This document shows positions 2,883-18,323 of a stretch of 21,104 bases of DNA, piece after piece. This stretch comes from a virus. The notes below the pieces were generated by a model. The model saw nothing but the letters and a program-made list of their open reading frames with translations. It had not been told where the DNA came from and searched no databases. How positions within the stretch are numbered: position 1 is the first letter of the stretch; each line of letters starts with the position of its first letter. The position numbers were made by a program, and so were the translations under genes. Location: positions 1 to 21,104 of IMG/VR virus record IMGVR_UViG_3300009194_000057. One strand, 5' to 3'.

Positions 2883-4261
2883 GCCTGTTTTCGCACGAAG
2901 CCGAGCAGAGCGTCATCGGTGCCTGCCTGCTCGAGAACCGCCTGATCGACAAGGTCTCCGACGTACTGGGTCACGCTGACTTCGCCTCCCTGGAGCACGC
3001 CGTGATCTGGTCGGCTATGACCCGCGTCCGCAACGCCGGCGAGGCGGTGGACATCATCTCCGTCTCCGAGCGCCTCGAGAGCGACCGGACGGATCAGGAG
3101 GTCGGCGGGCTGGCCTACCTCGCCGAGATCGCCAAGAACACGCCCAGCGCGGCCAATGCGCTGACCTACGCCGGCATCGTTGCCGATCTCGCCGCTCGCC
3201 GCCGGCTGCTGGAGTCCCTGACCGCCATCGAGGAGATGACCCGGGACAAGCAGCAGGCGCTGATGACGATCGTGGATGACGCCCAGGGGCGCCTGGCCAA
3301 GCTGATCCGCGCCGATGCCGACCAGGCGGGCCCGATGAGCGCCGACCTGGCCGACATGATCGATGAGATCGACCGCAAGTGGAACGGCGAGGAGGAGGCC
3401 ATGGGCCTGTCCTTCGGCCTGACCGACCTCGACGCTAGGACCATGGGCATGCACCCCGGCCAGCTGATTCTCGTCGGCGGCCGCCCGGCGATGGGCAAGA
3501 CCGCCTTCGCCCTGAACATCCTGCGCGCCTGCTGCGTGCGCGATCGCCGCCCGGCCGTGGTGTTCTCGATGGAGATGGACCGCCGGGCCCTGCGTAACCG
3601 CATGGCCGCTGCTATCGGCAACCTGCCGCTGCGCGCCATCCGCGACCCGAAGAGCTGCATGACGGACGAGCTGTGGCCGAAGCTCACCGACTCGGTCAAC
3701 TCGCTCAAGGATGCGCCGCTGATCGTCGATGACCGCGCCGGCATGTCGCCCAACCAGATCCGCGGTGCCGCCAAGCGCTGGCGTGACCACTACGGCGACC
3801 TGGGCATCGTGGTCGTGGACTACCTGCAGCTGATGCGCCCGGACGGCAAGCACAACTCCCGGGAGCAGGAGGTGGCCGAGGCCAGCCGGACCATGAAGCT
3901 GATGGCCAAGGAGCTGGGCTGCCCGGTGGTGGCGCTCTCGCAGCTCAATCGCAGCCTCGAGCAGCGCAGCGACAAGCGCCCGCAGATGTCCGACCTGCGT
4001 GAATCCGGCGCCTTGGAGCAGGACGCCGACCTGATCCTGTTCCTGTACCGGGACGAGGTCTACCACCCGAACAACGAGGCGACCCGCGGCATCGCCGAGA
4101 TCATCCTCGGCAAGCAGCGCGAGGGCGAGCTGGGCACCGTCTACGCCAGCTCCCAGCTGGGCAATGCGCGCTTCGCCGACCTGGACGCCGAGACGATTCG
4201 CAACCTGCGCAACCCCGAGCCAGCGGCCCCGGCCCCGCGCTCAGCCATGGCGGAGTTCTGA
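2879..4261 (+). CDS. dnaB: DnaB-family replicative helicase
   Basis: The 460-aa protein has full DnaB architecture: an N-terminal helical domain (residues 1-100, beginning with the conserved HEAEQSVIGACLL), a linker, and a RecA-like ATPase. Walker A is GGRPAMGKT at 200-208. The Walker B strand is IVVVDYLQLM, followed by the DnaB signature LSQLNR...KRP..SDLRESGALEQDAD. It unwinds DNA at the phage fork and is probably loaded by the upstream O-like protein, making a separate lambda-P loader unnecessary; none is seen. It overlaps the initiator by 4 nt. The length matches bacterial DnaB, so it appears intact. Position and phage neighbours mark it as the phage copy. Confidence 0.96.
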   Translation: MSLFSHEAEQSVIGACLLENRLIDKVSDVLGHADFASLEHAVIWSAMTRVRNAGEAVDIISVSERLESDRTDQEVGGLAYLAEIAKNTPSAANALTYAGIVADLAARRRLLESLTAIEEMTRDKQQALMTIVDDAQGRLAKLIRADADQAGPMSADLADMIDEIDRKWNGEEEAMGLSFGLTDLDARTMGMHPGQLILVGGRPAMGKTAFALNILRACCVRDRRPAVVFSMEMDRRALRNRMAAAIGNLPLRAIRDPKSCMTDELWPKLTDSVNSLKDAPLIVDDRAGMSPNQIRGAAKRWRDHYGDLGIVVVDYLQLMRPDGKHNSREQEVAEASRTMKLMAKELGCPVVALSQLNRSLEQRSDKRPQMSDLRESGALEQDADLILFLYRDEVYHPNNEATRGIAEIILGKQREGELGTVYASSQLGNARFADLDAETIRNLRNPEPAAPAPRSAMAEF

Positions 4262-4262
4262 C

Positions 4263-4478
4263 ATGACGACCTCGATCGATACCGTGCTGACCTCGCGCGA
4301 GATCGCGCACCTCGAGCGCCGCGGCATCCGGCCGGAGCGCTTCTATCCGTCAACCGGCGAACTGCTGGTCTGGGTGAACGGCGAGCCCTACGGCCTGAGC
4401 CTGCACCGCGTGAAGCAGATGGCCCGGCCGACACTCATCGACCGCGTTCGCGATTGGATTGGAGGGATTGCCGCATGA
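4263..4478 (+). CDS. small protein of unknown function
   Basis: The ATG at 4263 comes one base after the helicase stop, and GGAG about 8 bases upstream serves it. The 71-aa product (MTTSIDTVLTSREIAHLERR...VWVNGEPYGLSLHRVKQ) is basic with a short beta-rich centre. It ends in DWIGGIAA, a C-terminus imposed by the ribosome binding site and start of the next gene. It opens the run of overlapping small genes in the nin-like region. No family is recognised. Confidence 0.72.
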   Translation: MTTSIDTVLTSREIAHLERRGIRPERFYPSTGELLVWVNGEPYGLSLHRVKQMARPTLIDRVRDWIGGIAA

Positions 4479-4579
4479 CCAGCAACCTGCAGTGCCTGGC
4501 GATCATCGCCGGCAGCCATGTCGCCATTCTCGCCATCACGGCGTGCATGTGGGCTATCGCGAATGGAGGTGTGGCATGA
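4475..4579 (+). CDS. 34-aa single-pass membrane micro-protein
   Basis: The frame begins with an ATGA overlap to the preceding stop and ends with an ATGA overlap to the next gene. The product, MTSNLQCLAIIAGSHVAILA and on to NGGVA, is almost wholly one hydrophobic helix (residues about 6-28). GGAGGGA lies about 9 bases upstream of the ATG. The perfect fit between neighbours on both sides is the main support. A role cannot be assigned from sequence; small membrane proteins of this kind are common in phage operons and may act on the host membrane. Confidence 0.6.
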   Translation: MTSNLQCLAIIAGSHVAILAITACMWAIANGGVA

Positions 4580-4878
4580 CCACCGTCACCCAACTCACCC
4601 CGCGCTCCCGCCAGCGCCTGAACAACGCCGAGTGCCAGCTGGGCCGGGTCTATCTCGTCATGCGCGACGCCACGTACTGGCTCCAGCTCCACGAGATCGG
4701 CGACATCATCCTCGACCGCTTCAACCGGATGGACAGCCATGCAGCGATCAGCGCCCGGCTCCGCGACCTGCGGGCCATGGGATTCACGGTCGCCCGGCGT
4801 GACGTGAAAGGGCCGGGCAATACGAGGCCCTGCGAGTACCGGCTGTTCGAGGGGCATGACGAGGGAGGTGCGGCATGA
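4576..4878 (+). CDS. small winged-helix-like protein
   Basis: The 100-aa product starts at ATG 4576 with GGAGGT upstream. Its pattern YWLQLHEIGDIILDRFNRMDSHAAISARLRDLRAMGF is that of a winged helix: a helical scaffold, a recognition helix containing AAISARLRDL, and a wing leading to the basic RRDVKGPGNTRPCEYRLF. It probably binds DNA. A related layout (short winged-helix-like protein) recurs in the gene at 5353. Both ends overlap neighbours by 4 nt. No named family is assigned. Confidence 0.72.
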   Translation: MTTVTQLTPRSRQRLNNAECQLGRVYLVMRDATYWLQLHEIGDIILDRFNRMDSHAAISARLRDLRAMGFTVARRDVKGPGNTRPCEYRLFEGHDEGGAA

Positions 4879-11974: not shown

Positions 11975-12556
11975 ATGGCACACCGATACGACTGGGAGGC
12001 GATCGAGCTCGACTACCGCACCGGCCGATACAGCCTCGCGCAACTGTCCGAACGCCACGGCCCCAACCGAGCCTCGATCAGCAAGAAGGCGACCCGGGAG
12101 GGCTGGGCCAAGGATCTGACCGCGCCGGTGGCGCAGCGGACCCGCGAGAAGCTCAGCCGGCCGGAATCCGCGCCGCTCGACCTGCCAGAATCTGACGTGA
12201 TCGAGCAGGTGGCGAGCGAGAACGCCGACATTGCGCGTGGCCATCGTCGCCTGCTGGGCAACTACCGCAAGATTGCCGACCGGTTCATCACCCAGCTCGG
12301 CGACCAACTCGACCGCGGCAAGCGAGAAGTGCAGCTCGCCAACGGCGACGTCATGGAGATCGATCTCGACCTCGAGTACATCGGCAAGTGCATGGGCCAC
12401 GGCACCCAGGCGCTGGAGCGGGTCATCAAGATGGAGCGTCAGAGCTACCGGCTGGATGCCGAGGAGGGCGACGAGCCGCCGGAGCGCAACCTGAGTGACG
12501 ACGAGATCGAACAGCGCATCGAGGCGCTGCAGCGGAAGGCGGGGCGGAATGCGTGA
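11975..12556 (+). CDS. terminase small subunit candidate
   Basis: The 193-aa protein starts with a helix-turn-helix (YDWEAIELDYRTGRYSLAQL, then SERHGPNRASISKKATREGW, residues 5-45), a pattern typical of phage small terminases that recognise cos or pac DNA. A helical oligomerisation region (VIEQVASENADIARGHRRLLGNYRKIADRF) and an acidic tail (EEGDEPPERNLSDDEIEQRI) follow. It directly precedes the ATPase half of the large terminase and overlaps its GTG start by 4 nt. The ribosome binding site is poor, with GAGGG about 14 bases upstream. Function is inferred from the motif and from synteny. Confidence 0.82.
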   Translation: MAHRYDWEAIELDYRTGRYSLAQLSERHGPNRASISKKATREGWAKDLTAPVAQRTREKLSRPESAPLDLPESDVIEQVASENADIARGHRRLLGNYRKIADRFITQLGDQLDRGKREVQLANGDVMEIDLDLEYIGKCMGHGTQALERVIKMERQSYRLDAEEGDEPPERNLSDDEIEQRIEALQRKAGRNA

Positions 12557-14220
12557 CGCTCACCACCGCCGAGAAGCGCGCCTACCTGGCGCTGCTTGAA
12601 GAGCAGGAGCGCCGCCGCCGCTACAACCTGATCGACCAGCTATTCCCCGAAGACGGCACCCTCAGCCGCCACAACTACGCCAAGCACCTCGAGTTCTTCC
12701 GCGCCGGGGCTATCCACAAGGAACGGCTGTTCATGGCCGGCAACCGTTGCGTCACGCCATGGACATTCATTGAAACGGCGTCTGGTTCGGCCCGCGCCGC
12801 AGAAGCGCTGTTCGGCTGTGCTGGTAATCTTCGGGCGTGGGCTGATGGATCTGAACGTGATGTTCGACCTGTAGACGCACACCTGGTGGGCATTGAGCCA
12901 GCGTTTCGCGTGGTTCTGGACAGCGGTCGGTTTTTCGATTGCTCCCGTAAGCACCGGGTATTGACCGACGAGGGGTGGCTTTCTCTCGACCAGTTAGTGT
13001 CGCGCGCAGATGGTCTGCATTGGTCGCATACAGCTGGAGGTTATCAGGCCAGTTGTGTCGCGGGTGGTTATCTCGATGATCGACCACTTCCTCCGTGGTC
13101 AGATAGCGCCCAAGGACAACTTCCATCACCAAGCGGTGCTCGAACACATAGCCGCTTGGCGCTTTCGCGTGAGGATGCAGAGGCGCGAACACCTCGACAT
13201 ATCCGTGTTTGTCAACGCGGCGGCCACCCCGCCAGCTTTGATGACCGTCACCGTGTCGAGGCCCTGTCCGAGCCGTTTTCAGCTGCAGCGACCGACAGCG
13301 ACGTTCTACCGCTGACCTGGACACACCGAGCGTTTCGGCAGCTTGCGCTTGCGTCAGATGCTCAACCTCAATCAGGTGGCGAAGCTCGACATCATCAAGC
13401 CGCTTCGCATGTAGACGGCCTGCCGGGTTCGCTATTCCACGTCGCCGCAGGTAGGCCTGCAGGGATGCCCGGGTCAGACCCAGAGAATCAGCGATCCGAT
13501 AGGTCGGCTCGCCTGTTTCAATGCGTTGACGTATTTCCGGGAAGTGCTGGTCGATTGGGGATTTTCTACCCATCACGTATTCCTCGACTGGTAGGTGGAG
13601 AAACAATAGCGGCAATAGTTCCCATTGGTTTCCAGCCAATAATAGACGCTCATGTTCCCGGCCTCAACAACTACCGGGCAGCGGGCGTCTATCACCACAA
13701 CTGCGGGAAAACCATCGCTGGCGGCGCTGAAATCGCCTACCACATGACTGGCCGCTACCCAGAGTGGTGGGAAGGCAGGCGGTTTGACCGCCCGATCAAC
13801 GCCCTGGCCGCCGGGGACACCAGCCAGACCACGCGCGACATCATCCAGAAGAAGCTGCTGGGAGGGCTGTGGGATACCGAGGAGTTCGGCACCGGCCTGA
13901 TCCCCCGTGCGCTGCTGGGCAAGCCGACGCCTGCCCGGGGCGTGGCCAATCTCTACGAGGAAATCAGCGTAAAGCACGCCTCCGGCGGCTGGTCCCGGCT
14001 GATGCTTCGCAGCTACGACCAGGGCCGGCGCATCTTCCAGGGCACCGAGCAGGACGTGGTGTGGCTGGACGAAGAAGTCCCGAAGGACGTCTATGACGAG
14101 GCGCTGATCCGCACCATGACGACCCACGGCATCGTGATCATGACGTTCACGCCGCTCTCGGGCCTGACCGAGCTGGTGGTGTCGTTCCTCGAGTCGAAAC
14201 ACGAACAGGAGTCGGTATGA
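12553..14220 (+). CDS. large terminase, ATPase half, interrupted by intein 1
   Basis: The 555-residue precursor begins at GTG 12553 (GTGA overlap). The N-extein is residues 1-65, ending in MAGNR; intein 1 is residues 66-383; the C-extein starts CGKTIAGGAE at 384. Splicing would rebuild the Walker A motif GNRCGKT and yield a 237-aa ATPase. Walker B is VVWLDEE (502-508) and the coupling motif TFTPLSG follows. The chain ends at the point where other phage terminases pass into the nuclease domain; that half is a separate gene at 14501, with a 95-aa gene between. Without splicing the ATPase should be inactive, because the intein sits inside the nucleotide-binding loop. Confidence 0.92.
   Translation: MTLTTAEKRAYLALLEEQERRRRYNLIDQLFPEDGTLSRHNYAKHLEFFRAGAIHKERLFMAGNRCVTPWTFIETASGSARAAEALFGCAGNLRAWADGSERDVRPVDAHLVGIEPAFRVVLDSGRFFDCSRKHRVLTDEGWLSLDQLVSRADGLHWSHTAGGYQASCVAGGYLDDRPLPPWSDSAQGQLPSPSGARTHSRLALSREDAEARTPRHIRVCQRGGHPASFDDRHRVEALSEPFSAAATDSDVLPLTWTHRAFRQLALASDAQPQSGGEARHHQAASHVDGLPGSLFHVAAGRPAGMPGSDPENQRSDRSARLFQCVDVFPGSAGRLGIFYPSRIPRLVGGETIAAIVPIGFQPIIDAHVPGLNNYRAAGVYHHNCGKTIAGGAEIAYHMTGRYPEWWEGRRFDRPINALAAGDTSQTTRDIIQKKLLGGLWDTEEFGTGLIPRALLGKPTPARGVANLYEEISVKHASGGWSRLMLRSYDQGRRIFQGTEQDVVWLDEEVPKDVYDEALIRTMTTHGIVIMTFTPLSGLTELVVSFLESKHEQESV
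12767..13573 (-). CDS. HNH homing endonuclease nested antisense inside intein 1
   Basis: Read on the minus strand, ATG 13573-13571 with GAGGA eight bases upstream opens a 268-aa frame. Residues about 23-42 and 75-94 are two helix-turn-helix motifs (YRIADSLGLTRASLQAYLRR and QAQAAETLGVSRSAVERRC). Residues about 141-192 are an HNH_3-type nuclease: GYVFEHRLVMEVVLGRYLTT, then EEVVDHRDNHPRHNWPDNLQ. The HNH core maps to 12998-13153, just after intein block B. The last 75 residues lie antisense to blocks A and B and look like read-through tail. An upstream ATG at 13639 is in frame but poorly placed. It probably cuts intein-free terminase alleles to promote homing; target and activity are inferred. 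Confidence 0.9.
   Translation of the reverse strand: MGRKSPIDQHFPEIRQRIETGEPTYRIADSLGLTRASLQAYLRRRGIANPAGRLHAKRLDDVELRHLIEVEHLTQAQAAETLGVSRSAVERRCRSLQLKTARTGPRHGDGHQSWRGGRRVDKHGYVEVFAPLHPHAKAPSGYVFEHRLVMEVVLGRYLTTEEVVDHRDNHPRHNWPDNLQLYATNADHLRATLTGREKATPRRSIPGAYGSNRKTDRCPEPRETLAQCPPGVRLQVEHHVQIHQPTPEDYQHSRTALLRRGPNQTPFQ
13639..13667 (-). promoter_or_regulatory. promoter for the antisense HNH gene inside intein 1
   Basis: On the minus strand TTGAGG (13667-13662) is followed after 17 bp by TATTAT (13644-13639, 5 of 6). The start would fall near 13632, about 58 bases before the HNH ATG. The promoter is embedded in the plus-strand code for intein block F. Confidence 0.6.
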
Positions 14221-14504
14221 CCGCCCATCCCATCCCCGCCGATGTCGGCGCTGCGATCGCCGAAGGCCTGGCCGAGATCCAGCGCGACGCCAAGCGTGCA
14301 ATCTCCCGCATCGAGATGCCGCCGGCCTCTGCCGCCTACGTGGGCCGCACCACCAGCATGGCCAAGCGCCTCGCCGATACCGTGCGTGCCCGAGGCATCC
14401 AGTCCGGCACGCTGGCCCTGCGCATCGCCCGTCAGGTGGACCCGCACATCAGGCCCGGGCAGCGCATGGTGATCGCCGGGGCCGAGTTCACGGTGGCCGA
14501 ATGA
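14217..14504 (+). CDS. 95-aa protein splitting the two terminase halves
   Basis: The frame begins in an ATGA overlap with the ATPase half and ends in an ATGA overlap with the nuclease half. The product is Ala- and Arg-rich and helical (DVGAAIAEGLAEIQRDAKRA, then YVGRTTSMAKRLADTVRARG) with a C-terminal IRPGQRMVIAGAEFTVAE. No family is recognised, and it shows no intein or endonuclease motif. Tight coupling suggests it is made in equal amounts with both terminase parts and could bridge or regulate them. It is unusual because large terminases are normally one continuous chain across this point. Confidence 0.8.
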   Translation: MTAHPIPADVGAAIAEGLAEIQRDAKRAISRIEMPPASAAYVGRTTSMAKRLADTVRARGIQSGTLALRIARQVDPHIRPGQRMVIAGAEFTVAE

Positions 14505-16186
14505 GCCGCTATGTCGTGCAAGCCGGTTGGCGAGACGCCCCACACCTCAGCCAGCAGGACATCGACGACATGAGCCGCTCGATCTCGCCGCATCAGCTCA
14601 AGGCGCGCATGGACGGCACGCCCACCCTGGGCGCCGGGGCCATCTACCCGGTGCCGGAGGAGGACATCGTCGTCGAACCGTTCCAGATTCCCGAGTGGTG
14701 GCCGCGGCTGTATGGCCTCGACGTCGGCTGGAACAAGACCGCCGCCATCTGGGGCGCGCTGGACCGCGACACCGACACGCTCTACCTGAACAGCGAGCAC
14801 TACCGGGGCCAGGCCGAGGCCGCCGTGCACGCCAAGGCAATAAGGATGCGCGGCGAGTGGATGCCCGGCGTCATCGACTCTGCCGCCCGGGGCCGCAGTC
14901 AGGTGGACGGCAAGAGCCTGTTTTCGCTGTACGAGGACGAGGGGCTGCACCTGCACAACGCCAACAAGGCCGTCGAGGCCGGGTTGATGGCGGTGCTCGA
15001 GCGGCTCAGTACCGGCCGGCTCAAGGTGTTCTCCACCCTGCAGCACTGGCTCGGCGAATACCGCCTGTACCGGCGCGACGAGAAGGGCCGCGTCGTGAAG
15101 GAAAACGACCACTGCCTGCACCCCGATACGCAAGTCATCACCCGGCAGGGGAGACAACGTATTTCTGACCTCGTTGGGTCAACTGGCGAGGTATTGACGC
15201 AGGGTGGGCGATGGACTTCGTATCGGAACTGCCGGATGACAGCGCGAAACGAGAAGGTCGTTACTGTGTCGTTCGAGGACGGGAGCCGGGTGACTTGCAC
15301 GCCAGATCATCGCTTCTTGACGCCTGATGGGTGGGTGGAGGCGCGCGATATGGCTGGCCTGGAATGCTATAATGCAGTAACGCAAAGCATCCATGAGAGC
15401 CAGCCATGCAAGTCACCATCATCTCCGACACCATCCAAGAGTTTGAAGGGCGGCGTTATTACCTGTGCGGCGCTTATTTCCAGAGCGATGGTGTCCGGCT
15501 ACACCGCCAGGTATGGGAGCGCGCGAATGGAAAAGTGGTGCCGGAGGGTTTCCATGTACACCACAAGGATCATGACCGCAGCAACAACCAGCCGGGCAAT
15601 CTCGAGCTGGTGTCAGCGTCTGACCACATGCGGCACCACCATGAAGGGCATGATCGGGGCGTTCCTGCAGAGGCAATCGAGGCTGCCAGGGCTTGGCATG
15701 GCAGTGACGCCGGGCGCGACTGGCATCGCCAGCATTACGAGCGAACCAAGGGCAAGCTCCACGTGCGCCGATCCTTCGTCTGTGAGCAGTGCGGCACCGA
15801 GTTCACGGCTCTGGATCGAGGCATCAACAGGTTCTGCTCCAATAGCTGCAAGACCAAATGGCGGAAAGAGGCGGGGCTGGATGACGAGGTTCGTCAGTGC
15901 GTTGAGTGCAAGGCGGAGTTCACGGCCAACAAGTATTCCCGCAAGCAAACATGCAGCCGCAAGTGCGGTGGTGCGCTGTCTGGGCGTAAGCGACGCCGGG
16001 AGGAGTGATGTCTACTGCCTGACGGTGCCTGAAACGGCCGCCTTTGCCGTGGAAGGCGGCGTGGTTGTTCACAACTGCATGGACGCCACCCGTTATCTGG
16101 TCATGGGGCTGCAGCACGCCACCACGCGACCCATCGAACGCCATGCCACATCGGCCCGCCCGGGCGATCTGACGACAGGATACTGA
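14501..16186 (+). CDS. large terminase, nuclease half, interrupted by intein 2
   Basis: The 561-residue precursor begins MSRYVVQAGWRDAPHLSQQD, the segment that usually follows the ATPase domain of phage large terminases. The RNase H-like nuclease shows motif I at LYGLDVGWNKTAAIWG (D74), motif II at GVIDSAARG (D126) and motif III at ENDH|CMDATRYLVM (D203 and D528), split by intein 2 (residues 205-525). The spliced product has 240 residues. It cuts the concatemer at the start or end of packaging. Together with the ATPase half (237 aa spliced) the total, about 477 aa, is a normal terminase length. The start overlaps the 95-aa gene by 4 nt. Confidence 0.92.
   Translation: MSRYVVQAGWRDAPHLSQQDIDDMSRSISPHQLKARMDGTPTLGAGAIYPVPEEDIVVEPFQIPEWWPRLYGLDVGWNKTAAIWGALDRDTDTLYLNSEHYRGQAEAAVHAKAIRMRGEWMPGVIDSAARGRSQVDGKSLFSLYEDEGLHLHNANKAVEAGLMAVLERLSTGRLKVFSTLQHWLGEYRLYRRDEKGRVVKENDHCLHPDTQVITRQGRQRISDLVGSTGEVLTQGGRWTSYRNCRMTARNEKVVTVSFEDGSRVTCTPDHRFLTPDGWVEARDMAGLECYNAVTQSIHESQPCKSPSSPTPSKSLKGGVITCAALISRAMVSGYTARYGSARMEKWCRRVSMYTTRIMTAATTSRAISSWCQRLTTCGTTMKGMIGAFLQRQSRLPGLGMAVTPGATGIASITSEPRASSTCADPSSVSSAAPSSRLWIEASTGSAPIAARPNGGKRRGWMTRFVSALSARRSSRPTSIPASKHAAASAVVRCLGVSDAGRSDVYCLTVPETAAFAVEGGVVVHNCMDATRYLVMGLQHATTRPIERHATSARPGDLTTGY
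15365..15373 (+). promoter_or_regulatory. extended -10 promoter for the nested HNH gene of intein 2
   Basis: TGCTATAAT contains a perfect TATAAT and the TG extension one base upstream. The -35 region (GCGATA near 15345) is poor, as is usual for extended -10 promoters. The start would fall near 15380, about 26 bases before the HNH ATG at 15406. It is encoded within the intein frame. Confidence 0.65.
15406..16008 (+). CDS. HNH endonuclease with tandem metal fingers, nested out of frame in intein 2
   Basis: The 200-aa protein is in a different frame from the surrounding intein. Residues 31-75 form an HNH_3-like nuclease: RLHRQVWERANGKVVPEG, then FHVHHKDHDRSNNQPGNLEL (H33, H52-H53, N60-N61, N65) and a later H74. 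Two metal fingers of the same spacing follow: CxxC-x14-CxxxC at 126-148 and 165-187, which probably add DNA binding. The tail is very basic (RKRRREE). It starts at ATG 15406, 33 bases after a perfect extended -10, and its TGA (16006-16008) abuts intein block F. The likely role is homing of intein 2 by cutting intein-free alleles; its target is not shown. Confidence 0.93.
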   Translation: MQVTIISDTIQEFEGRRYYLCGAYFQSDGVRLHRQVWERANGKVVPEGFHVHHKDHDRSNNQPGNLELVSASDHMRHHHEGHDRGVPAEAIEAARAWHGSDAGRDWHRQHYERTKGKLHVRRSFVCEQCGTEFTALDRGINRFCSNSCKTKWRKEAGLDDEVRQCVECKAEFTANKYSRKQTCSRKCGGALSGRKRRREE

Positions 16187-16187
16187 G

Positions 16188-18323
16188 ATGCACGACGACG
16201 CGACTGTCGAGATGACAGACGACATCGAGGCGCAGGAAGCCGAGCGCCAGGCGCTTGAGGAGAAGCTCTCCGGCCTCGGCGGCAAGCTTCAGAACCTCGC
16301 CCAGGAGCAGGTCGCCAAGCGGCAGATGGTCGAGCAGCGCTGGTTGGAGGATCTGCGCCAGTACCACGGCGAGTACACCGCCGACGAGAAGTCGCGGATG
16401 CAGGCCAACGGCAGCTCGCAGGTCTACGTCAACATCACCCGCAACAAGACCCGCGCCGGGCAGTCCCGCCTGGCCGACATGCTACTGCCCAACGATGACC
16501 GCAACTGGGGCATCAAGCCCACCCCCGAGCCGCAGATGTCCGCACTGGGCACGGATGACGACCCCGAGGAACAGCGCGAGAAGGCCGACGACGCCGCCCG
16601 GGGCATGCAGCGCGCCATCGAGGACGATTTCACCGAGGCCCGCTACAACTCGAAGATGCGCGACATCATCGGCGACGTGGCGCAGCTCGGCACCGGCATC
16701 GTCAAGGGGCCGATCGTCGTCAACCGTCAGCGCCGCGCCTGGCGTCGCGATCCGGAATCCGGCTATCCGGTGCTGGAGATCGTTGACGAGTTCCGCGCCG
16801 GCCTCGAGCGTGTCGATCCCTGGGACTTCTTCCCCGACATGAGCTCGGCCAGCATGGAAGAGGCCGAGTTCGTCTTCGAGCGCAAGCTGCTCAACAAGAA
16901 GCAGCTGCGCGAACTGGCCAACCTGCCCGGCGTGATCGACGGTCAGCTTCGCAAGGTCCTCGAGATGGACAGCGAGGGCCACAAGATCAGCCAGGATTAC
17001 CGCGACCAGATCCGCGCCATCACCGGCGTGGACACCGTCACCAACAAGGGGCGCTGGGAGCTGTGGGAATACTGGGGCCCGCTCGACAAGGACGAGCTGC
17101 GCGCCTGTGGCTGCGAGGTCGAGGACGACCCGCTGACCGAGTACAACGGCTGCGTGCTGTTCGTCGGCGAGCATGTCATCAAAGCGGCGATCAACCCGCT
17201 GGACAGCGGCGATCTGCCGTACAGCGTGTCGAACTGGGAGGAGGACAACTCCTCGATCTTCGGCTTCGGCATCCCGTACCTGATGCGCGACCCGCAGAAG
17301 GTGGCGGCCAGCGCCTGGCGGATGATCATGGACAACGCCGGGCTGACCGCCGGGCCCCAGGTCGTGGTCAACCGCAAGGCTGTGAAGCCGGTTGACGGCG
17401 ACTGGAGGCTGTCACCGCGCAAGGTGTGGGAATACACCGGCGACGGTCCCATCAACGGCGCCTTCTACGCCTACAACATCACCTCGAACCAGGGCGATCT
17501 GTCCAGCATCTTCCAGGCCGCCCAGCAGCTCGCCGACACCCAGACCAACCTGCCGATCATCCTCCAGGGCGAAGGCGTCAGCGGCGGCCCCGGCTCGCAG
17601 ACCGCGACCGGCATGCAGATGCTGATGAACAACTCCAACATCGTGCTGCGCAGCGCGGTGAAGAGCTTCGACGACGGCATCACCGAGCCGCTCGTGCGCC
17701 GGTTCTACGACTGGCACATGGCCTATGACGAGAACGACGAGCACAAGGGCGATTTTAGCGTCGTCGCCCGCGGCTCCAGCGTGCTGATCGCCCGGCAGGA
17801 ACAGCAGGACAAGCTGCTCGCCCTGGCCCAGGTCGCCGCCAGCAATCCCGAGTTCGCCCGCTCCACCGAGTGGCAGGGCCTGTACCGCGAAATCGTGCGC
17901 TCGATGTCCGTGCCCGCCGAGAACGTACTCAAGGACGAAGAGACGGTCGAGCAGGAAGCCGAGCAGCAGGGCCAGCAGATGCCACCGGAACTGCAGCTCA
18001 AGATGGCCGAGCAGCAGCTCAAGCAAGAGCAGTTCCAGTTCGAGCAGCAGAAGACCCAGTGGGAATTCCAGCTCAAGCAGCGGGAGCAGCAGTTCGACCA
18101 GCAGTACAAGGCCGCCGAGCTCGAGCAGGAGCGCGAGATCAAGCTGGCCGACCTGGCCCTCAAGCGCGAGATGACCCTCGAGCAGCTCAAGGTCAAGCTC
18201 GGCATCGAGACGGCCAATATCCAGACCGAGCGCGAGACCACCGCCGCCAACCTGCTCGACAGCCAGAACCGCCGGCAGGCGAAGGAACAGAACATGGGCA
18301 TGGGGTACGACAGCTATGGCTGA
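16188..18323 (+). CDS. portal protein
   Basis: The 711-aa protein follows the terminase. It has the features of large podovirus-type portals: an N-terminal helical region, a body with VDPWDFFPDMSSASMEEAEF, SIFGFGIPYLMRDPQKVAAS, and a segment ILQGEGVSGGPGSQTATGMQ typical of this family. The C-terminal 130 residues are Gln/Glu-rich coiled coil (QLKMAEQQLKQEQFQFEQQK and on). Portal dodecamers form the DNA entry ring and dock the terminase. The start at ATG 16188 comes one base after the terminase stop, with AGGA upstream. The last codons overlap the next gene by 8 nt. Confidence 0.9.
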   Translation: MHDDATVEMTDDIEAQEAERQALEEKLSGLGGKLQNLAQEQVAKRQMVEQRWLEDLRQYHGEYTADEKSRMQANGSSQVYVNITRNKTRAGQSRLADMLLPNDDRNWGIKPTPEPQMSALGTDDDPEEQREKADDAARGMQRAIEDDFTEARYNSKMRDIIGDVAQLGTGIVKGPIVVNRQRRAWRRDPESGYPVLEIVDEFRAGLERVDPWDFFPDMSSASMEEAEFVFERKLLNKKQLRELANLPGVIDGQLRKVLEMDSEGHKISQDYRDQIRAITGVDTVTNKGRWELWEYWGPLDKDELRACGCEVEDDPLTEYNGCVLFVGEHVIKAAINPLDSGDLPYSVSNWEEDNSSIFGFGIPYLMRDPQKVAASAWRMIMDNAGLTAGPQVVVNRKAVKPVDGDWRLSPRKVWEYTGDGPINGAFYAYNITSNQGDLSSIFQAAQQLADTQTNLPIILQGEGVSGGPGSQTATGMQMLMNNSNIVLRSAVKSFDDGITEPLVRRFYDWHMAYDENDEHKGDFSVVARGSSVLIARQEQQDKLLALAQVAASNPEFARSTEWQGLYREIVRSMSVPAENVLKDEETVEQEAEQQGQQMPPELQLKMAEQQLKQEQFQFEQQKTQWEFQLKQREQQFDQQYKAAELEQEREIKLADLALKREMTLEQLKVKLGIETANIQTERETTAANLLDSQNRRQAKEQNMGMGYDSYG

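Follow-up and report, generated by a model that had tools for sequence, protein, structure and literature searches.

To our knowledge, inteins have been described as carrying the nuclease as part of the precursor protein. Canonical mobile inteins, such as those found in mycobacteriophage terminases (PMC5050341), host an in-frame homing endonuclease domain. The element analyzed here shares with them the splicing-domain fold, the insertion in a terminase ATPase and, plausibly, the logic of homing, but its nuclease is a separate gene located on the opposite strand, outside the precursor. Being separate and on the other strand, this gene needs a promoter and a ribosome site of its own. The ShiLan domain, and similar out-of-frame HNH inserts in actinophage methylases (PMC11855218), also feature a mobile insert in which an HNH gene overlaps a host frame that remains open. 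In these, however, the HNH gene is on the sense strand, and there is neither a splicing domain nor a detectable ribosome site, whereas in the present case an intein is associated with an antisense HNH gene. Antisense homing endonuclease genes are known in nuclear rDNA group I introns, among which Didymium L2066 and S956-2 (PMC9548176). These are likewise homing genes set antisense in a self-splicing element, and have there their own transcript; they differ in that the element is an RNA intron inserted in a non-coding rRNA gene, the nuclease is of the His-Cys box type, and the host is a eukaryote. Since the rRNA gene is non-coding, the host strand need not stay open. Fractured genes, in which a free-standing nuclease gene lies between the halves of a split intein, were reportedly described by Dassa et al. 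in 2009. Common to the two cases is the association of a free-standing nuclease gene with an intein, but those split inteins are said to be distributed in two genes, and the intein described here is one continuous frame running through the nuclease gene.

No antisense nuclease gene within an intein was found in the literature searched, as the preliminary description of this DNA had maintained; the exception may be a preprint on actinobacteriophage inteins (doi 10.1101/2025.01.02.630785), which refers to a 'non-canonical architecture' and may describe related frame overlaps. We interpret the locus as a mobile intein, the homing endonuclease of which is the product of a separate HNH gene running antisense within the intein, and assign to this reading a probability of about 0.88. 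In its working the element resembles a mobile intein from which the nuclease has been detached and, unlike in canonical inteins, this nuclease is not in frame. It is also likely, at a somewhat lower level of confidence, that the locus represents a widespread and undescribed class of phage inteins, marked by a free-standing antisense HNH gene whose promoter and ribosome site are located within the splicing half, by several hundred bases coding on both strands, which selection keeps open in one antisense phase, and by a related sense-strand design in the same window.

The terminase gene and its intein

The window is the whole stretch of DNA analyzed, corresponding to positions 1-21,104 of the 21,104-base virus record IMGVR_UViG_3300009194_000057. 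Profile matches identified in it genes for a replicative helicase, a terminase, a portal and a major capsid protein of the N4-gp56 family. The ATPase half of the terminase large subunit is encoded by a 555-aa ORF (12553-14220, + strand) comprising N-extein, intein and C-extein, and matching both Pfam Terminase_6N (E 1.3e-16) and phrog_31467 (E 1.7e-65). A 95-aa ORF (14217-14504) separates it from the nuclease half (14501-16186), overlapping each neighbouring terminase half by four bases (ATGA); all three ORFs are on the + strand. In several related loci the ATPase half ends ~170-180 residues past the intein, while in others, L077 and L088 among them, the terminase is continuous.

The intein is 318 aa long (12748-13701, + strand), and lies between the R and the C of the Walker A motif (GNR|CGKT). 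Site and coordinates had been given in the preliminary description, and both were confirmed by reading of the ORF and by the extein sequence, MAGNR|CGKT. The frame is stop-free from Cys1 (12748) to Asn318 (13701). The N-terminal splicing half (12748-13017, + strand) includes Cys1, block A, and block B with the tract S-R-K-H; the C-terminal splicing half (13576-13701, + strand), recognized also by dN/dS and Foldseek, includes block F (QPIIDAHVP..NNYRAAG) and block G (YHHN). The intervening linker (13018-13572, + strand) is disordered in the intein frame, and hosts on the opposite strand the body of the HNH gene. Cys1, the block-B His, the terminal HHN and Cys+1, all noticed earlier, are indeed there. 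The terminal splicing residues C1, H317, N318 and C+1 are found in aligned homologues as well, and the alignment columns corresponding to S66-R-K-H69 in block B and QPIIDAHVP..NNY in block F are invariant. The larger pattern C1, T6, S/T66-x-x-H69, D300, H317, N318 is also present.

In the AF2 model of the intein frame both ends are folded, residues 1-80 forming a block with pLDDT of about 70-85, and residues 87-271 are mostly disordered (pLDDT mostly <50). The intein blocks, for which a profile search had been suggested, are borne out by the residue pattern and by Foldseek, which pairs the window intein with DnaB, DnaE and RecA mini-inteins (probability 1.0, best E 6.6e-06). Curated profiles match weakly: intein-bearing NCBIfam models were hit at E 1e-4, and no Pfam intein model was matched by this intein. 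In sequence and in fold the insert has the features of an intein, and both motifs and fold suggest that it is spliced.

The earlier claim that the intein has no in-frame endonuclease holds, as no nuclease domain was matched in the linker by Pfam search. The canonical layout, with a nuclease in the linker, was consequently rejected, the linker being disordered and the HNH domain antisense. A group I or group II intron was also rejected, because the Rfam search of the window gave no match. An assembly error is countered by a second IMG/VR contig, identical over 11,665 bases though perhaps from the same sample, and by the finding of the same layout in homologues from many other samples.

The antisense HNH gene

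The 268-aa ORF (13573-12767, - strand) reported in the preliminary description was confirmed, and ORF reading, PHROG matches, alignment, selection and AF2 concur in defining it as a putative HTH-HTH-HNH endonuclease gene. PHROG HNH families match the minus-strand protein strongly (best phrog_20891, E 8.8e-21). The original label HNH_3 stands in part. Six of the eight aligned members match this Pfam family at E up to 0.01 (best 3e-6), but the window protein, matched at residues 146-181 (E 1.1e-3, 19.0 bits), falls below the gathering score of 24.8.

Two helix-turn-helix units are predicted, in agreement with the earlier reading. The first (residues 8-44; 13442-13552, - strand) corresponds to AF2 helices in a block with pLDDT 74-90, the second (residues 61-95; 13289-13393, - strand) is supported by several Pfam HTH models and by AF2. 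The HNH domain (residues 118-190; 13004-13222, - strand) was delimited by alignment, HNH_3 and PHROG HNH matches. Its catalytic stretch, from E145-H146 to N178, maps at about 13040-13141, close to the interval 12998-13153 formerly assigned to the HNH core. Residues E145, H146, R147, H166, D168, N169, N174 and N178 are invariant in the alignment of eight HNH homologues. The AF2 model of the whole protein is moderate (pLDDT 67.6), and comparison of the fold to the PDB yielded neither a significant match nor a solved relative. The antisense protein has the motif features of HNH nucleases, and would be expected to cleave DNA.

Coordinates support the early notion that the HNH gene covers almost the whole intein, to be refined as follows. 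The HNH body falls within the linker, and true dual coding with the N-terminal splicing half is confined to a C-terminal tail of ~70 aa (12770-12985, - strand), where a sliding phase test showed no free wobble position among four homologues. Loci L036 and L037 host a divergent member, in which the HNH ORF lacks the first helix-turn-helix; as this ORF ends before the N-terminal splicing half, the dual-coded tail is missing.

Coding and selection on the two strands

Variable columns were sorted by codon phase in the window intein and in three close homologues, each 954 nt long. Their distribution in the linker is 56/123/46 (p 7e-11), with an excess at third positions of the HNH frame; for the C-terminal splicing half the counts are 16/11/30, and here third positions of the intein frame are in excess. 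The dN/dS values follow the same scheme. In the linker they are 0.11-0.21 for the HNH frame versus about 2 for the intein frame, and in the C-terminal splicing half 0.04-0.25 for the intein frame. The intein frame dominates also in the N-terminal splicing half (0.18-0.26 between close pairs), where, over the HNH tail, no free wobble position is left in either frame between distant pairs of the four homologues. The flip of frame in dN/dS was seen again in PHS3-like and MGPVG-like lineages. Conservation of both frames, which had been predicted, was thus found by dN/dS and phase in three lineages in total.

Synonymous reshuffling of the HNH codons of the window leaves the intein frame open in 0.5% of trials; values range from 0.02 to 7% in the lineage of the window, and from 0 to 6% in other lineages. 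The host frame is nevertheless open in all the 29 nested inteins tested against shuffling. All nested homologues are free of stops in one and the same antisense phase, in which seven free-standing HNH relatives contain 4-17 stops.

GC-rich genes often have long ORFs on the opposite strand, and many such ORFs are found in the window. Both facts count for the view that the minus-strand ORF results from codon bias in a real intein encoded on the other strand, its likeness to HNH proteins being due to chance. Such a view is hardly credible in light of the match to the HNH family (E 8.8e-21), of the wobble position and dN/dS of the linker, which follow the HNH frame, and of conservation of the ORF in about 100 distinct inteins. 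Frame-specific selection and codon shuffles rule out a chance antisense ORF. Both frames code and are under selection. The intein-frame linker is proposed to be the HNH gene read in reverse, with selection acting on it mainly against stops.

Expression signals of the HNH gene

A Shine-Dalgarno sequence, GAGGA (13581-13585, - strand), is located 7 nt upstream of the HNH ATG. In most of 22 loci the sequence at the HNH start beats most random nearby positions (Fisher p 1.7e-10, shared ancestry ignored), and several loci of the PHS3 lineage feature the motif TAGGAGG. Further upstream, inside the C-terminal splicing half, the sigma-70 consensus scan identified the promoter-like sequence TTGAGG-17-TATTAT (13639-13667, - strand), which ends 65 bases before the HNH start codon. 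This is the only sigma-70-like site in the interval 12400-16300, where 0.6 are expected by chance, and in the lineage of the window the site taken alone is near chance (p about 0.07). In the PHS3 lineage a near-consensus TTGACA-17-[GA]ATAAT is found at -60 in 5/5 loci.

Conservation of the promoter site in the window lineage is partly due to the QPIID motif encoded by the other strand, two residues of which face the -10 box. The second of these residues is specified by an xTA codon in 17/24 inteins, against 155/728 of the I/L/V codons in the rest of the splicing halves (p 3e-7, shared ancestry ignored). Where this residue is Ile, the codon is ATA in 11/11 cases, against 32/283 Ile codons in the extein, a comparison also made ignoring ancestry.

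Antisense coding is shown by selection and the initiation signals by statistics, and together they make it plausible that the strand is transcribed and the HNH gene translated. Shine-Dalgarno and promoter-like signals similarly argue for the earlier suggestion that the nuclease is expressed separately from the terminase and at another time. In this selfish element the two parts are encoded by separate genes, one on each strand, so that dose and timing of the nuclease can differ from those of the packaging enzyme.

Distribution among phages

Scanning with the intein alignment retrieved 28 loci. The antisense HNH ORF was found in the same phase in all the 26 examined (about 23 distinct), with HMM E values of 1e-76 to 1e-155, and in none of the 26 is the minus-strand frame broken while the intein is intact. 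Once scans with HNH sequences and alignments were added, the nested set reached 102 distinct inteins in 170 fetched loci. Clustering of these on their last 230 residues gave 92 groups at 90% identity and 60 at 50%. The HNH-first counts are biased towards nested cases, because HNH was the query, and the intein-first scan is fairer. A scan for the PHS3 type reported 236 relatives, 80 of which were kept; all the distinct ones among those 80 (61/61) are nested.

Nearly all the host genes are terminases interrupted at the P-loop, and all nested cases are in one antisense phase. In L117 an antisense HNH gene (about 3935-4735) is found within an intein located at the P-loop of a RecD-like helicase. 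One further nested case, L124, was identified by a scan of genome contigs in a Gammaproteobacteria MAG. Cultured carriers are the Pseudoalteromonas phage PHS3 and eight Pectobacterium/Dickeya phages, denominated Ymer, Abuela, Sabo, Koroua, Amona, Taid, Pappous and Setonix. The nested arrangement was read directly in the sequences of PHS3 and Ymer; the remaining seven phages match Ymer across the whole terminase at 91-100% DNA identity. Terminases of Klebsiella and Escherichia phages align to that of Ymer in two pieces or downstream only, leaving the intein uncovered. The plasmid search gave only partial matches, in four records. In tblastn searches with these HNH proteins the actinophage matches were partial, mostly to annotated HNH genes, and none was recognized as nested. 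The HNH tree is too weakly supported to count the origins of the nested layout.

Genome annotation goes wrong at such overlapping loci. In PHS3 (KX912252.1, 17336-19314) the terminase is annotated short and the HNH gene is kept, while in Ymer (OP748252.2, 2451-4715) the terminase is reported as 'hypothetical protein' and the HNH gene is missed; both are errors caused by the overlap. With about a hundred distinct elements, nature offers here an extensive collection of protein genes that overlap in antisense, in which the constraint on each frame is measurable, and the cultured phages make the association of intein and antisense HNH gene directly testable.

Occupied and empty sites

Among 75 distinct terminases of this type, 28 are occupied and 47 are empty. 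The residue following the site (+1) is always C, S or T in the former, mostly V, I or L in the latter. The constancy of C/S/T weighs against the idea that the antisense HNH gene is real but the insert does not splice and the terminase tolerates it, a proposal made for the ShiLan domain, whose inserts are thought to stay in the protein (PMC11855218). The insert breaks the P-loop of an essential ATPase; homologues moreover carry the complete set of splicing residues, and the intein frame of the C-terminal half shows strong purifying selection. Retention of the insert in the protein is very improbable.

The extein of the occupied locus L004 is 97% identical in protein to the empty terminase L008. 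At the DNA level, 14/42 mismatches are found in the first bases downstream of the site, and about 31/468 over the next bases; the latter count was taken from window counts, excluding the stretch past base 510, where the two sequences diverge altogether. The +1 codon is TGC in L004, as in the window analyzed here, and GTA in L008. Such a clustering of mismatches close to the insertion site would be expected if homing was accompanied by co-conversion; together with the empty alleles, and with a splice-permissive +1 residue only in the occupied ones, it supports homing. Alleles come and go, and the arrangement is conserved.

Nearly exclusive residence in terminases, and the published statement that certain HNH proteins of phages assist the terminase in packaging (PMC11855218), would also fit a real and expressed antisense HNH protein that assists packaging, the intein serving as a passive shelter rather than as partner in homing. 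Yet close relatives, with terminases 77-97% identical, do without the insert, the L117 case sits in a RecD-like helicase, and both the two helix-turn-helix units and the tract resembling co-conversion fit homing better. A packaging role is accordingly held to be unlikely, though less so than a non-splicing insert.

According to the homing interpretation, the sense transcript of the terminase gene would be translated into a precursor, in which the two splicing halves fold around the disordered linker. As motifs and fold suggest, excision of the intein would join GNR to CGKT and restore the Walker A motif. On the antisense strand, the initiation signals hosted in the C-terminal splicing half may drive synthesis of the free-standing HTH-HTH-HNH protein. 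This would recognize and cut the P-loop codons where they are uninterrupted, in a terminase gene lacking the intein, and repair templated by the occupied copy would insert the intein, the HNH gene and a short flanking tract. One stretch of DNA would make in this way two proteins that together could spread the insert without harming the host gene.

A second intein with a sense nested HNH gene

The nuclease-half terminase gene of the window hosts a second intein (15113-16075, + strand), in which an HNH ORF is nested in another frame of the same strand (15406-16008, + strand; HNH_3 E 3e-17, phrog_15471 E 1.4e-54). As in the first intein, HNH is separately encoded inside the intein and the host frame is kept open; the two differ in strand, HNH family, which is phrog_15471 in intein 2, and insertion site. 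About 30 bases before the sense HNH ORF, an extended -10-like sequence, TGCTATAAT (15365-15373, + strand), was noticed by eye; it is not reported by the consensus scan, which requires a -35.

In seven loci related to intein 2 (L242, L243, L245-L249) the host frame is open across the HNH gene. It is not open in two free-standing relatives of the intein-2 HNH, and the shuffle test is weaker than in the antisense case. L243 features a terminase frame of 1175 aa containing apparently two inteins, the second of which carries the sense nested HNH gene.
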